Assembly: GCA_026989995.1 (NCBI GenBank)
Contig: JALSIO010000795.1
Location: 1-8,109, forward strand
Length of the DNA: 8,109 nt
Reading direction: 5' to 3'
Source: Myxococcales bacterium
GTDB lineage: Bacteria; Myxococcota_A; UBA9160; JALSIO01
The notes beneath the pieces are model-generated. The model was not told the origin of the DNA, made no database searches, and saw only the letters and a list, made by a program, of their open reading frames with translations. Of this stretch, positions 1 to 6,694 are shown piece by piece. The position numbers and the translations under genes are program-made. The first letter of the stretch is position 1. Each line of letters opens with the position of its first letter.

Positions 1-295
1 CCACGAAGGGAACTCCCCGGCGATCCTCCTCCTGCCCGGGCCCCTCCCCGACGAAGAGGAGATCCGCCTCCGGGTTCCCGTCTCCGAAGACGATCTTCGT
101 GCGGCTCTCGGAGAGGCGGCAGCGCCGGCAGTCGCCGATCCAGGCACGGACCTCCTCGAGGGTCCTGGGCCGGGACGGGCCGGCGGCCTCCGCGGCCGGC
201 GGCGGGGGCTCGTAGCCCTCCTCGGCGAGCTCGGCGAGGAGCGCACACGCGCTGCGCAGGATGGCCCGCGCCTCCTCCCGCTGCGTCGGCTCCAC
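1..295 (-). CDS. Family 4 uracil-DNA glycosylase, N-terminal part (cut by window edge)
   Basis: This gene encodes an iron-sulfur uracil-DNA glycosylase that removes uracil from DNA in base-excision repair. Only the first 98 codons are present. After about 50 low-complexity residues, including a proline run at 30-33, comes CRRC (C56, C59). These would be the first two of four cysteines that hold the 4Fe-4S cluster in this family. Next is the conserved [13 protein letters not shown] segment at 68-75, then motif 1, GEGPGQEED (83-91), which contains the family's catalytic acidic position and uracil-pocket residues. The last visible residues, RRGVPFV, lead into the usual GxAG region, which is outside the window. 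The GTG start lies one base after the stop of the upstream cytochrome gene and has a GGGAGGG ribosome site 5 bases upstream, so the two are probably co-transcribed. The other two cluster cysteines and the second motif cannot be checked. The family call is strong. Confidence 0.9.
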
Positions 296-296
296 C

Positions 297-2396
297 CTAG
301 CCCTCCCGCGGTGCGAAGCCGGCCGCACCGAAGGCCCGCTCGAGCAGACCGAGCTGTGCGTCGGCGGGGATCGGCGGGGGGAGCGGCGGGCCCGCGGCAG
401 CGCCGGATCGGTCGAGGGTGCCGTGGCGCTGGGCCTCGATCTTCTCCTCGACCTCGAACTCGAAGCCGGGGTCGTTGGCCTCGTCGTGGCAGCTCCCGCA
501 GATCTCGAGGATCACGCAGGTGTCGCACTTGTCCGAGAGGGAGAGGATCGTCCCCCGTTTGGGCGCCTGCTCCGGAACGTGGTTCCCACCGGGTCCGTGG
601 CAGGACTCGCACCCCACCCGCGCGAGATCCGGGTGGTCCGCGGGTGAGCCGTCCTCCGGGAATCCGCCCTCCTGGCCGAAACCGGTGGTGTGGCAGCGGA
701 GGCACGCCGGGTCCTCCGAGGCATCCTTCGCGGCCAGGGACTCCACCGACCGGGCATGGCGTCCCCGGGCCCAGGTCTCGTACTCCGCCGGGTGGCAGGA
801 CCGGCAGGCCTCCGAGCCGACGTGCGGGGCCGTGCCCCCGAGCACGGCCGGCCTCGGCCCCCCGCGTTCGGCCAGCAGCCGGGCGCGCTCCGCGGGCGGG
901 AGCTCCGCCAGGTGGGCGTTGGCCGCGTGCGACACGTGTGGCAGGAAGCGGGCGTAGTCGAAGCCGAGTGAGTGCTTCTCGTCGTGGCAGCGCAGGCAGA
1001 CCGGTTCGTAGTTGCCGTCGCGCACGAAGCCGGGCGAGAGATGGGGGCCCCCGCGGCCGTGGCAGGACTCGCAGCCCACGTCCTCGAGCTCCGGGCGCGG
1101 GCCGGCGAGGGACCACCCGCCCGGCTCGCCGTATCCCACCACGTGGCAGCCGACGCACTCGGGATCGGAGTCGGCTCCGTGCCGGACCAGGGTGTCGAAG
1201 GCCACGGCGTGCCGGGTGAGCTCCCAGGTGAGGGTCTCCCGCTCGTGGCAGACCCCGCAGACCTCTCCGCCGCTGTAGCCCTCGCGGGCGAGGAGCATGG
1301 GCACGGGTACGCCGGCGAGGGCAGCCAGCCGCATGCGGAGGAGCGCCGGGTCGCGCCCCTCCCGCCAGCCGCGGAACCGGGCCCGGATGCGTCCCTCGGC
1401 GTCGATGAGGAAGATGTCCGGCACGCCCCCGAAGACGCCGAAGGCCCGGCGGATCGAGCCGTCGGGATCCATCACGACCGGGAAGAAGTCGAGACCCGCC
1501 GATTCAAGCGCCGCCCGGACCGCGTAGGGCTTGTCCTGCACCGACACCCCGACGAGCGCGGGCCGCCGTTCCTCGGGAATCGCGGGGAGCTCCGACTTCA
1601 GCGTCTCGAGGGCTTCGTGACAGTGCGGGCAGGTATGGAGGAAGAAGATCAACACCACCGGCCGGCCGCGCAGCGCGCCGAGGTGGAAGGGCTCGCCCCC
1701 GTCGAGCCGCGGCCCCGTGAAATCGGGCGCGGGCGGATGGACCCCGGCGGCCGCTTCCCGCGGCTCCGGAAGCCGCAGGCGCTCGCGCAGCAGTGCCGCG
1801 AGGGACTCCCGCGCCTCCTCCGCCGAGGCCGAGGGCGCGGCGAGGGCGAAGGAGAGATTTCCCTCGGCGTCCACGCCGAAGAGCGCCACCGGGGCCCGGA
1901 CCAGCCGGGTGGCCACGCGGCCGCTCGAATCGTCGATCACCGGGAAGCGGATGCCGCGCGAGGCCACGAAGGCCTCGATGGCCTCGCGGTCCGCCGCGGT
2001 CGCGATGCCCAGGATCTCGAAGTTCTCCGCGGCGCGGAGGTCCTGGATGGAGACCACCGCCTCCGCCGCCGGGCCGGCCTCGGGGGCCTCCGGGTTGAAG
2101 ATGAACAGCAGCAGCCGCCGGCCGAGGAGATCCCGCGCCGAGACGGTCCGGCCGTCGAGGGTGGTGCCGGAAAAGGAGGGCAGGGGCCGCTTCTGCGGCG
2201 GGTGCGGGTGGTCGTGCTCCCGGCCCGGCCCCGCGGCCCGGTCGGCGCCCGCCTCCGAGGCCGCCTGCACGTCCGCACCCCCTCCGCCGGACTCGGCACC
2301 ACAGCCCGCGAGGACCAGGAGCCCCGCCGAGGCAGCGGCGAGAAGCCAGAGCAGGACACACGGGTGGCGACGCGAGGCCCTCACCGCGCGCAGCAT
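297..2396 (-). CDS. Lipoprotein with tandem thioredoxin-like domains and an octahaem c554-type cytochrome region
   Basis: Residues are numbered from an in-frame TTG at 2420. I prefer the ATG at 2396 (residue 9), which gives 699 residues and a better-sized signal peptide; neither start has a strong ribosome site. An arginine-rich n-region, a hydrophobic core and a LAGC lipobox (C40) indicate an exported lipoprotein. A His/Pro-rich linker follows. The first redoxin-like domain (about 80-195) has NPEAPEAG where the CxxC should be, so it lacks redox cysteines. The second, TlpA/AhpC-like domain (about 230-370) has C264-P-H-C267 and a GVPDIF cis-proline segment. Eight CxxCH haem motifs follow in two sets of four, at 388, 422, 450 and 475, then 539, 573, 604 and 641. 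Possible distal histidines include H404 and H555. The set resembles the cytochrome c554 family. The likely role is periplasmic or cell-surface electron transfer joined to thiol/disulfide chemistry; substrate and partners are unknown. A CDTC at 632-635 is not followed by His. Confidence 0.9.
301..307 (-). promoter_or_regulatory. Ribosome binding site for the uracil-DNA glycosylase
   Basis: GGGAGGG lies within the last codons of the upstream cytochrome gene, 5 bases before GTG at 295. It supports a GTG start and suggests translational coupling of the two genes. Confidence 0.7.
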
Positions 2397-2457: not shown

Positions 2458-3606
2458 TCAGGAGGCGACGCGCTCGAGGATGTGGATGCCGCACGCGCTG
2501 CCGAGCCCGATCACGTGCGTCAGGCCCACCCGCGCGCCCTCCACCTGCCGCCGCCCCGCCTCGCCGCGCAGGTGGGTCGCCACCTCGTAGACGTTCGCCA
2601 CGCCGGTGGCTCCGAGGGGGTGCCCCTTCGAGAGCAGGCCCCCGGAGACGTTCACCGGGATCCGACCGCCGAGCGCCGTCTCGCCCTCGTCGATGAGCTT
2701 TCCCGCCTCGCCCTCGGCGCAGAGGCCGAGGTTCTCGTAGTGCAGGATCTCGGCCGTCGCGAAGCAGTCGTGGAGCTCCACGAGATCGAGGTCCTCGGGG
2801 CCCACGCCCGCCATCTCGTAGGCCCGCTTCGCCGCCTGCCGGGTGCAGGTGTTCACGTCCGGCATCACGAGGTCGCGGTCGGTGTACGGGTCGCTGGTGA
2901 GCACCGATGCGCTCACCCTGACCGCGCGTCCCATCCCGAGCTCGCGCGCCTTGCGCTCCGAGGCGAGCACGGCAGCCGCGGCGCCGTCGACGTTCACCGA
3001 GCACATCAGCTTGGTGTTCGGGTAGGCGATCATCTCGGCATTCATGACCGTCTCGAGGGGCGTCTCGATCTGGTACATGGCCTTCGGGTTCATGGTGGAG
3101 TGGTGGTGGTTCTTCACCGAGACCTTGGCGAATTGCTCGAAGGTGGTGCCGTACTTGCGGGCGTGCTCCATGCCCGCCTCTGCGAAGACCGCCGGCATCA
3201 GTCCCGAGCCGAGCAGGCCTTCGGTGGGGATGCCGCGGCCGCCTCCGCCTCCGCCGAGCAGCCCCGCCTTCCCCATCTGCTCGACCCCCACCACGAGGCA
3301 GAGGTCGTAGAGGCCGGCGCGGATCGCGGCCCAGGCCTCGCGGAAGGCGGTGGCCCCGGTGGCGCAGGCGTTGGCGCAGTTGATCACGGGAATCCCGGTC
3401 TGGCCGATCTCCTGGAGGATGCGCTGGCCGACCATCGCGCTGGCCTGGAGGAGATTCCCGCAGTAGAAGGCCTCCATCTGCCGGATGTCGAGCCCGGCGT
3501 CGTCGAGGGCGAGCAGCGCCGCCTCCGCGCCGAGCTGCGGCACGGTCCGCTCCGGAAAGCGGCCGAACTTGATCATGTCGATGCCCATCACGTAGACGTC
3601 GCTCAC
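2458..3606 (-). CDS. Thiolase family protein (acetyl-CoA acetyltransferase / SCP2-thiolase-like)
   Basis: This is a 382-residue thiolase-fold enzyme, expected to be cytoplasmic and to cleave or form carbon-carbon bonds on CoA thioesters. The nucleophile region is NACATGATAF with C81. The C-terminal half has ELHDCF (H279) and GHPLGATG (H329), the two usual active-site histidine motifs, and GSACG (C372), which may supply the acid/base cysteine. These intact residues favour true thiolase chemistry over the retro-aldolase variants (Ltp2 type) that lost the cysteine. A six-glycine stretch lies at 118-123 and a triple histidine at 167-169. The length suits the short thiolases that pair with DUF35 proteins rather than the roughly 390-residue FadA/AtoB type. 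The GTG start has a strong AGGAGGG site. The DUF35 gene lies 28 bases upstream on the same strand, so the two products probably form a complex. The acyl substrate cannot be read from sequence: fatty-acid, sterol side-chain or acetoacetyl-CoA metabolism are all possible. Confidence 0.92.
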   Translation of the reverse strand: MSDVYVMGIDMIKFGRFPERTVPQLGAEAALLALDDAGLDIRQMEAFYCGNLLQASAMVGQRILQEIGQTGIPVINCANACATGATAFREAWAAIRAGLYDLCLVVGVEQMGKAGLLGGGGGGRGIPTEGLLGSGLMPAVFAEAGMEHARKYGTTFEQFAKVSVKNHHHSTMNPKAMYQIETPLETVMNAEMIAYPNTKLMCSVNVDGAAAAVLASERKARELGMGRAVRVSASVLTSDPYTDRDLVMPDVNTCTRQAAKRAYEMAGVGPEDLDLVELHDCFATAEILHYENLGLCAEGEAGKLIDEGETALGGRIPVNVSGGLLSKGHPLGATGVANVYEVATHLRGEAGRRQVEGARVGLTHVIGLGSACGIHILERVAS

Positions 3607-3611
3607 CGTCT

Positions 3612-3618
3612 CCCTCCT
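3612..3618 (-). promoter_or_regulatory. Ribosome binding site for the thiolase
   Basis: AGGAGGG lies 5 bases before GTG at 3606. It fixes the start as GTG. Confidence 0.8.
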
Positions 3619-3634
3619 GCTCCGGCCCGTGGCG

Positions 3635-4066
3635 CTAGTCGCTGCGCGGCCGGAAGTACCAGGTCAGATACTCGTTGCCCTCGGCATCCTTGCGCGGGGC
3701 CACCCGGAAGACCACCTCCACCGGCATCCCCATCTGGATCTTGTCCGGGTCGGGCTCCACATCGATCAGGTTGCCCTTGAGCGTGCCCCCGCCCTCGAGG
3801 TCCACCACCGCCGACACGTAGGGAACCTCCACGCCCGGGAAGGAGCGGTGGACGATGCTGTAGACGTAGAGGGTCCCCCGGTTCGACAGGCGCACGGGCT
3901 CGAATCCCTCCCGCGAGCCGCACTTCGCGCAGGCGATCCGCTCGCCGAGGAAGATCTCGCCGCAGCTCCGGCACTTCTGGCCCTCGAGGTGGGGCTCGCC
4001 GTCGTCGGGGATCTTGAGGAAGGGCCGGATCGGAAGGGGCTTTCGGGCCTGGGCTGCCTCGGTCAT
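3635..4066 (-). CDS. DUF35-type OB-fold protein with rubredoxin-like zinc ribbon (thiolase partner)
   Basis: This is a 143-residue protein of the family found beside thiolases. In known complexes (archaeal acetoacetyl-CoA thiolase with HMG-CoA synthase, and steroid side-chain Ltp2/ChsH2) such proteins bridge subunits and hold the CoA ester. A short N-terminal helix region (about 8-30) precedes a zinc ribbon with C32-RS-C35 and C46-AK-C49. An OB-fold barrel follows from about 52 to 123, with the typical GTLYVYSIVHRSFPG and PYVSAVVDLEGG segments. The frame stays open upstream to 4237, but ATG at 4066 is chosen because it has a GAGGA site 5 bases before it and begins where family similarity begins. 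The upstream part is low-complexity and Pro/Arg/Gly-rich. It is the first gene of a likely two-gene unit with the thiolase. No HMG-CoA synthase or acyl-CoA dehydrogenase gene is in view. Confidence 0.9.
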   Translation of the reverse strand: MTEAAQARKPLPIRPFLKIPDDGEPHLEGQKCRSCGEIFLGERIACAKCGSREGFEPVRLSNRGTLYVYSIVHRSFPGVEVPYVSAVVDLEGGGTLKGNLIDVEPDPDKIQMGMPVEVVFRVAPRKDAEGNEYLTWYFRPRSD

Positions 4067-4071
4067 GCAGG

Positions 4072-4076
4072 TCCTC
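4072..4076 (-). promoter_or_regulatory. Ribosome binding site for the DUF35 protein
   Basis: GAGGA lies 5 bases before ATG at 4066. It decides this start over the longer open frame. Confidence 0.65.
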
Positions 4077-4167
4077 GCACCGGGTGGTCCGCCCCGCCGG
4101 ACGGGACGGTGCGGCTTCCCGGCGCGGGGCCCCGCCGGCTGCGCGGGACGGCCGCGCGGGGAACCTC

Positions 4168-4198
4168 CCGCCACCGCAAGCCGCGGCTTGACTGGCGG
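4168..4198 (-). repeat. Nested palindrome upstream of the DUF35-thiolase genes; possible operator
   Basis: The core CAAGCCGCGGCTTG (4177-4190) is a perfect 14-base palindrome. It is flanked by CCGCCA (4168-4173) and its reverse complement TGGCGG (4193-4198), with 3 and 2 unpaired bases between arms. The whole 31-base element lies in the 167-base gap between the J-domain gene and the DUF35 gene, about 100 bases upstream of the DUF35 start. There is no T-run after it on either strand, so it is a poor intrinsic terminator. A TTGATC on the - strand (4203-4198) could be a -35 element beside it, but no convincing -10 follows. Its size and symmetry fit a dimeric repressor site such as those of TetR-family regulators, which often control acyl-CoA genes. 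That function is inference. Confidence 0.4.
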
Positions 4199-4233
4199 AT
4201 CAACCACGATCTTGCAGGCGGTGGGGCCGGGTG

Positions 4234-4769
4234 TCAATCCCGCTCGAGCTCCGGCACCTCGCGTCCCTCGCGGAGGGCGGCGAGGGCACCCTCGAAGTGG
4301 GGATTGCCCGGCTCGAAGGCGAGGGCCATCTGGAGGTTGCGGAGGGCCGCGGCGCGGTCCCCGCGGCGGAGGTCGCGGCGGGCGGCCTCGAAGAATCGGC
4401 GGCCCCTGCCCGTGCGGCCGGAGCGCTCCGCGCTTGCCGAGCGCGCAGCCGCCCCTGCCTGGCCGATCCCGAGCCGGAGCGCCCGCGGATCGCGCTCGAG
4501 CTGGCGGTCGTAGGCCGCCCGGCGACCGGGGTCCCGGAGCACGGCGTAGGCCTCCGAGAGCCGGGCGGCGACGCGTGCCGAGGCCACGCGCAGCTCGTCC
4601 GGGGCCTGCCTCCAGGCGTCCGGATGGAAGCGCCGGGAGGCCCGGTGGTAGGCGCGGCGCACCGCCTCGCCGCTGGCACCGCGCTCGAGCTCGAGCAGCT
4701 CGTAGTAGTCGAGCTGGTCGAGCATGGAGGCGACGGCGCGGAGCTCCCCCGCCCGCTGCGGGGCCCCGG

Positions 4770-4773
<4 letters not shown>
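4234..4773 (-). CDS. Small J-domain co-chaperone with TPR-like C-terminal region
   Basis: This is a 179-residue J protein. The J domain (about 22-92) has [13 protein letters not shown], the signature HPD (50-52) that stimulates Hsp70 ATPase, and a helix IV segment with [16 protein letters not shown] (75-90). It lacks the Gly/Phe region, cysteine zinc fingers and C-terminal barrels of full DnaJ. Instead, a basic linker (93-126) leads to a helical region at 127-170 containing [20 protein letters not shown], a good match to one TPR-like helix pair. The chosen GTG start overlaps the dnaK stop as GTGA and has a weak GGGGA site 9 bases upstream. An alternative ATG at 4725 gives 163 residues and still keeps the whole J domain, but has no ribosome site nearby. 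The overlap implies translational coupling to the Hsp70, so this is probably its dedicated partner, with the TPR-like part binding a client or a scaffold. Confidence 0.88.
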
Positions 4774-6521
<1,748 letters not shown>

Positions 6522-6694
6522 CGATTCCTCCTCCCTGACCGGATCCCCGCAGGGAAAGCGGAGCGCGGGCTCCAACTGCACCCGTCCGGATATCGGCCGG
6601 TCGCCGCCTTCCCTACAGGGGCGGGCGGGAGGGCGGTCCCCGCGGCCCGGAGGGCGGCGGCACCCGGGGCTTTCGTGCTACTTACACCCCCGCC
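6522..6694. promoter_or_regulatory. Divergent intergenic region between dnaK and yebC
   Basis: These 173 bases separate two genes transcribed away from each other, so promoters for both should lie here. On the + strand TGCTACTTA (6676-6684) resembles an extended -10 (TG-n-TACTTA). It has no recognisable -35 and would start transcription only a few bases before the yebC ATG, giving an almost leaderless mRNA. I see no Shine-Dalgarno site for yebC, which agrees with that. On the - strand no convincing promoter is visible, and there is no CIRCE-type heat-shock repeat. The existence of promoters is inferred from layout; exact elements are uncertain. Confidence 0.45.
6526..6535 (-). promoter_or_regulatory. 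Ribosome binding site for the Hsp70 gene
   Basis: GGGAGGAGGA lies 4 bases before ATG at 6521. It is the strongest ribosome site in the window and fixes the start. Confidence 0.85.

Follow-up and report, generated by a model that had tools for sequence, protein, structure and literature searches.

The object of this study is a gene that joins redoxin and multihaem cytochrome domains on one polypeptide, found in an 8,109-nucleotide stretch of DNA (hereafter the window; contig JALSIO010000795.1 of GenBank assembly GCA_026989995.1) from a Myxococcales bacterium of the GTDB lineage Myxococcota_A. The whole coding sequence, identified from its open reading frame, Pfam matches and homologues, occupies positions 297..2396, in agreement with the initial annotation, and lies on the minus strand, as do all window features given below; its ATG is at 2396 and its stop codon ends at 297, the plus strand of the same interval being interrupted by two stops. 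The product of 699 amino acids is a predicted redoxin-octahaem lipoprotein. Pfam recognises AhpC-TSA, Redoxin and Cytochrome_C554 on it, in two stretches each, with AhpC-TSA and Cytochrome_C554 both above the Pfam cut-offs, and a signal peptide with the lipobox LAGC and Cys32 (2301..2396) was read by eye. These results confirm the lipobox, the two redoxin-like domains and the single polypeptide of about 700 residues that had been claimed for this locus. The lipid anchor, like the covalent attachment of haems, is predicted from motifs.

Homologues come in two forms, a long one with the domain order of the window protein and a short one with a single redoxin domain and eight haem motifs, the first redoxin domain being absent (as read in 20 of 34 genomes). 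With a threshold of E 0.001, a search with the long form returned at least 1086 proteins, of which 120 were listed, the window's own among them, and a search with the short form returned at least 1347, again with 120 listed; the possibility that the fusion is an assembly artefact is ruled out by the at least 1086 homologous proteins. Our alignment, A1, has 139 rows, namely 119 long proteins, including that of the window, and 20 short ones taken from the 120 listed. P0106, an 812-residue homologue that carries an exact repeat of a haem block, was excluded from it, the repeat being probably an assembly artefact. Throughout the 139 rows the dithiol cysteines, a second CxxC and all cysteines and histidines of the haem motifs are invariant, which makes the fusion real and conserved, and both redox centres have therefore been retained on one chain.

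Redoxin domains and the CPHC site

The first redoxin domain (about residues 70-212; 1761..2189) was placed by two Pfam AhpC-TSA stretches and by VIA matches on model residues 37-179. It holds no cysteine in A1, where all 119 long proteins were compared and P0003 covers the domain only partly, nor in any of the 47 long loci of a second sequence set. It is therefore no peroxiredoxin, although this is a frequent name in the source records: the peroxidatic cysteine is absent, and the candidate is ruled out for this domain.

The second redoxin domain (about residues 219-345; 1362..1742) has a ResA-like fold with a CxxC motif, and its nearest folds in structure searches are ResA- and CcmG-type; the list obtained with the whole model was filled by redoxin domains, so that rows missing from it for other parts are uninformative. 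Its dithiol site, located on A1, is CPHC at C256/C259, followed by H260 (1617..1631), and the cysteines that had been numbered 264 and 267 are these two if numbering starts at the ATG of position 2396. Both thioredoxin folds of the initial annotation are thus present, but only the second has a dithiol. C256, H258 and C259 occur in all 139 rows and P257 in 135 of them; P326 is likewise invariant and by its position is presumably the cis-proline.

The ResA-like fold with CxxC is common to this protein and to ResA, TlpA and CcmG (AhpC-TSA and Redoxin families), from which it differs by its CPHC motif, the extra cysteine-free redoxin fold and the eight haem motifs. One might think of a ResA- or DsbC-like helper in cytochrome biogenesis or disulfide isomerisation, whose haems would merely serve to maintain its redox state or to tether it to a maturation complex. 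We consider this clearly unlikely: the scores fall far under the curated cut-offs (47.5 bits against 170 for ResA, 32.3 against 123 for DsbE), the same genome also has at least one single-domain redoxin, and eight conserved haem motifs exceed the needs of a helper. Despite its CPHC motif, the protein has no Pfam match to DSBA, DsbB or VKOR at E 0.001.

Haem motifs and the second CxxC

The eight haem motifs are grouped into two modules of c554 type with four CxxCH apiece, module 1 at residues 380, 414, 442 and 467 (984..1259; from Pfam and the invariant columns of A1) and module 2 at residues 531, 565, 596 and 633 (486..806). The two stretches matching Cytochrome_C554 (PF13435) score 102.3 bits against a cut-off of 20.8. 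Outside the motifs, the histidines 396, 452, 475, 547, 606 and 658 are invariant in A1, and His 490 is kept in 138 of the 139 rows; in cytochrome c554 three haems have bis-His ligation and one is five-coordinate. In one long-form locus, L015, module 1 lacks its third and fourth motifs, by either a real deletion or an assembly error.

A chance origin of the CxxCH motifs is ruled out, since about 0.03 would be expected from the composition (22 Cys and 29 His per 699 residues). The count of eight stands for the haem modules, whereas the protein as a whole has nine with CPHCH at residue 256. H260 is found in 119 of 119 long and none of 20 short rows of A1, and in 47 of 47 long and none of 20 short loci of the second set; with CPHC followed by a constant histidine, the long-form thioredoxin site itself therefore reads CxxCH. 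It is conceivable, and in our judgement very unlikely, that this site is haemylated, which would give a nine-haem protein whose CxxC redox site had turned into a haem site. The strict link of H260 with the long form and the nine CxxCH motifs in 120 of 121 proteins speak for it, but DsbC of Escherichia coli carries CGYCH and is not known to bind a haem there, and the fold round the present site is ResA-like. Against it stands also a study cited in PMC3420020, in which the introduction of a haem motif into a thioredoxin-like fold did not lead to a high degree of haem attachment.

A pattern search revealed a second conserved CxxC, C624/C627 (516..527), which lies outside the haem motifs and just ahead of motif 8, five residues separating the two. 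All listed proteins, 119 long and 120 short, carry the combined pattern C..C-x5-C..CH before haem 8, which makes 239 of 239 with both queries included. The pair is also found in 139 of 139 rows of A1 and in 66 of 67 sequences of the second set, the remaining one being a short locus with Gln aligned at C624. It may be a relay for electrons or a structural disulfide.

Compared with cytochrome c554 of Nitrosomonas (PF13435), the present protein has tandem modules, redoxin domains and the extra CxxC ahead of the last haem, and it does not reach the CycA family cut-off (91.9 bits against 400). In its haem part the protein is similar to c554 and has a weak similarity to OcwA and to the undecahaem protein of Carboxydothermus; together with the absence of cysteine from the first redoxin fold, this would suit an extracellular electron-transfer cytochrome in which both redoxin folds have a structural role or serve to bind a partner. 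But such a role would leave the invariance of C256, H258, C259 and P326 without explanation, and no porin gene was seen among the neighbours that were run against Pfam, many of them not having been run, which makes it a highly improbable reading.

The best NCBIfam match is UshA-like PCGU (NF041198), at 180.9 bits under an equivalog cut-off of 275, with its best stretch in the C-terminal haem part. That family too combines a multihaem part with a CxxC-type motif (PCGU) in a single chain (7 of 12 loci); it differs in having a UshA-like body instead of redoxin domains, one haem module, and the PCGU far upstream of the haem motifs. The second CxxC was considered as a counterpart of this PCGU, and this was ruled out, with no match between them. 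NF041198 is above its cut-off in 7 of 140 genomes of the phylum, each with one in-frame TGA, and at E 1e-30 it is matched in 95 of the 140, where some of the matches are partial and at least four are to the redoxin-octahaem family itself. At loci L174-L176, L178-L180 and L184, the UshA-like genes have their in-frame TGA within a stretch translated as EPCGUP, which lies far ahead of four haem motifs.

Distribution and gene neighbourhood

The initial annotation had left open how widespread the architecture is. In a phylum sample of 377 genomes, with a threshold of E 1e-30 or better, matches were found in 74 of the 79 genomes of the same order (own genome included; several matches split or partial), in 7 of 11 other genomes of the class and in 34 of 287 others of the phylum, and the fusion is thus widespread in the order. 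The own genome has a single copy, and of two other matches in it, the one checked by Pfam is a single redoxin domain. A FastTree tree built on 67 sequences resolves the long form as one clade of 47 tips with a support of 0.97. A scan of one genome per species gave 17 loci, which, the two partial matches L019 and L020 aside, bear the titles Myxococcota, Myxococcales, Deltaproteobacteria, Proteobacteria or uncultured bacterium. The few organisms named among the listed long-form matches are Myxococcota or Myxococcaceae, and those named among the listed short-form matches are Myxococcota, Deltaproteobacteria, Proteobacteria and one Kiritimatiellia. The source names of the listed long-form matches are peroxiredoxin, redoxin domain-containing protein, multiheme c-type cytochrome and cytochrome c-554.

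The short form likewise has a CxHC redoxin domain, the eight haem motifs and the second CxxC. Unlike the long form, it has no first redoxin domain and no histidine after the site, and its lipobox is rare: among the 120 listed short proteins, CxHC is present in 118 and CPHC in 114, His is never next, and a lipobox pattern is found in 3, compared with a lipobox-like motif, by a simple pattern, in 74 of 119 long-form proteins.

In the window, the redoxin-octahaem gene is followed by the start of a uracil-DNA glycosylase gene (2..295; GTG at 295; Pfam UDG), whose frame begins one base past its stop. Upstream on the same strand, at a gap of 61 bases, lies a thiolase-like gene (2458..3606), and beyond it are a gene of ChsH2-type with OB-fold and zinc ribbon (3635..4237, an open frame whose true start is probably further in), a J-domain protein gene (4234..4725; Pfam DnaJ) and a DnaK-like Hsp70 gene (4770..6581; Pfam HSP70), the thiolase and OB-fold genes also being assigned by Pfam. 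The genes for Hsp70, J-domain, OB-fold and thiolase proteins at 2458-6581 thus run co-directionally into the redoxin-octahaem gene. We compared 32 long-form loci, of which the phylum sample supplied 20, among them four from other genomes of the class, and the species scan 12. In 25 of the 32 the gene is preceded by a co-directional Hsp70 gene, some of the other seven being cut by contig ends, and in 24 by a J-domain gene; OB-fold and thiolase genes occur at some loci, and further out, on the opposite strand, lie genes for Ruv and YebC. The upstream Hsp70 gene is a weak hint at protein folding, and the long-form neighbours say nothing direct on electrons. The short form is often preceded by large membrane proteins, as at L070, L077, L078, L081 and L085, some with stop/start overlap; of the four membrane proteins run on Pfam, three gave no match and one gave a weak match to PMT_2.

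Proposed thiol oxidation and the direction of electrons

Our preferred reading, which we hold tentatively and at a probability of roughly 0.4, is that the protein is a haem-wired thiol oxidase, sending thiol electrons into its octahaem chain. It would face the periplasm as a predicted lipoprotein with a ResA-like CPHC domain and two c554-type four-haem modules. The thiols of client proteins or of DsbA-like proteins would reduce the CPHC disulfide, and electrons would pass from CPHC to the octahaem chain, possibly relayed by C624/C627, and exit to a soluble cytochrome or oxidase, towards the respiratory chain; the cysteine-free redoxin fold might serve as a docking or spacer domain. Haem loading, export, the proximity of CPHC to a haem, the direction of electrons and the partners are what we infer in this scheme. 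Bacterial thiol oxidation is known to run via DsbB or VKOR, which are quinone-linked membrane proteins, to quinones. The protein resembles DsbA working with DsbB or VKOR in its CPHC motif and in its proposed role between thiols and the respiratory chain, and differs from that system in having haems instead of a quinone-linked membrane protein. In the order, it would take over the role of DsbB or VKOR. The wider claim, namely that this octahaem wire is a third bacterial route to disulfides, working with neither quinone nor flavin and replacing both DsbB and VKOR in the order, is rather doubtful.

The strongest support comes from the order itself, which is mostly without VKOR or DsbB matches, has DsbA-like proteins and keeps the protein in nearly every genome. 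At E 0.001, VKOR is matched in 7 of the 79 genomes (5 above the cut-off), DsbB in 23, and either of them in 28, the union being counted by hand. Among the 37 better genomes (at least 90% complete, at most 5% contaminated), a hand count gives VKOR in 5, DsbB in 9 and neither in 24; the own genome, 89.9% complete, has no match to either. In the phylum sample VKOR is found in 235 of 356 genomes, 7 of them in this order and 3 in the rest of the class. For Erv1/ALR (PF04777) there was no match in the 79 genomes, but the control matched nowhere, so that its absence is not established. DsbA-like Thioredoxin_4 matches occur in 79 of 79 genomes, as do matches to PF01323, a family too broad to use. All 12 DsbA-like loci that were read have C[PR][FY]C sites, 11 of them after a long N-terminal extension (L186-L196), and an oxidant is therefore to be expected across the order. 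Some further Thioredoxin_4 matches contain an in-frame TGA.

The parity of cysteine numbers was used as an indication of disulfides in two genomes with no DsbB or VKOR match, G264 and G210, with 800 kb of each and 1343 genes called by our own script. The exported set comprises 238 proteins with predicted export, after removal of eight that contain CxxCH. Among exported proteins with 1-6 Cys, 84 have an even and 55 an odd number (p = 0.017), and even numbers are commoner in exported than in cytoplasmic proteins (Fisher p = 0.0011). The half of the data fetched later gives 43 even and 25 odd (p = 0.0385), and G210 alone 48 and 21; a cruder gene caller (252 and 227 genes) on the first half gave 8 even and 10 odd. 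An excess of proteins with two Cys was noticed post hoc in the first half, and the second half was fetched as its test: there, proteins with two Cys against those with one or three number 29 against 19 in the exported and 57 against 131 in the cytoplasmic set (p = 0.0002). This suggests, though gene and export calls are rough, that disulfides are made in at least one genome without matches to the usual reoxidases.

Several observations weigh against a thiol oxidase. The strongest objection lies in the short form, which is accompanied by VKOR in every genome seen (34 of 34, lists compared by hand); the family as such is therefore no VKOR substitute. VKOR loss and the long form coincide in one clade and may represent a single event, and among the genomes of the order without the gene, DsbB is matched in 3 of 5, too few for a test. 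The few neighbours that were run against Pfam, many others being unannotated, included no respiratory partner. As to cysteine parity, the cytoplasmic proteins with 1-6 Cys show an unexplained odd excess (235 even, 292 odd; p = 0.015), the first half alone is not significant (41 even, 30 odd; p = 0.235), and the signal comes from G210, G264 alone having none (36 against 34). Furthermore, the nearest folds of the active redoxin domain belong to ResA- and CcmG-type proteins, which are reductases, and DsbD_TM/CcdA matches are found in 74 of the 79 genomes, from which the dithiol could equally receive electrons.

These last two observations at the same time favour the main rival, a reverse flow from CcdA/DsbD through the CPHC dithiol and the haems to an acceptor, which may be an oxidised periplasmic protein, peroxide or a cytochrome; CcdA-type proteins do reduce ResA- and CcmG-type proteins. 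No gene for such an acceptor was seen among the annotated neighbours, and a pure reductase would not explain the retention of the protein in an order mostly without VKOR or DsbB matches. The CPHC motif bears on both directions: according to PMC4395160, the potentials are -89/-124 mV for DsbA, -32 mV for AfTrx1 and -221 mV for an engineered CPHC thioredoxin. That the engineered protein remains at -221 mV would suit the reverse flow, whereas the natural CPHC proteins quoted in the same source are oxidising. With this range from -32 to -221 mV, flow from dithiol to haem is plausible and the motif alone is not decisive. We regard the reverse flow as rather unlikely.

In the literature searched, most subscription journals being outside its coverage, no paper on such a fusion of redoxin and multihaem domains was found; the domains are known, and their combination and the second CxxC are, as far as we found, undescribed. 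Even on a weaker reading than the thiol oxidase, the results name a conserved family that has been labelled merely peroxiredoxin, redoxin domain protein or multihaem cytochrome, labels which persist in the databases although the first redoxin domain is cysteine-free and the second ResA-like. If the thiol oxidase is true, it would explain how DsbA-like proteins are oxidised in an order mostly without VKOR or DsbB matches. In mitochondria, thiol oxidation is linked to cytochrome c through Erv1, and a direct coupling of dithiol and haem in these bacteria would then be the bacterial counterpart of that link.
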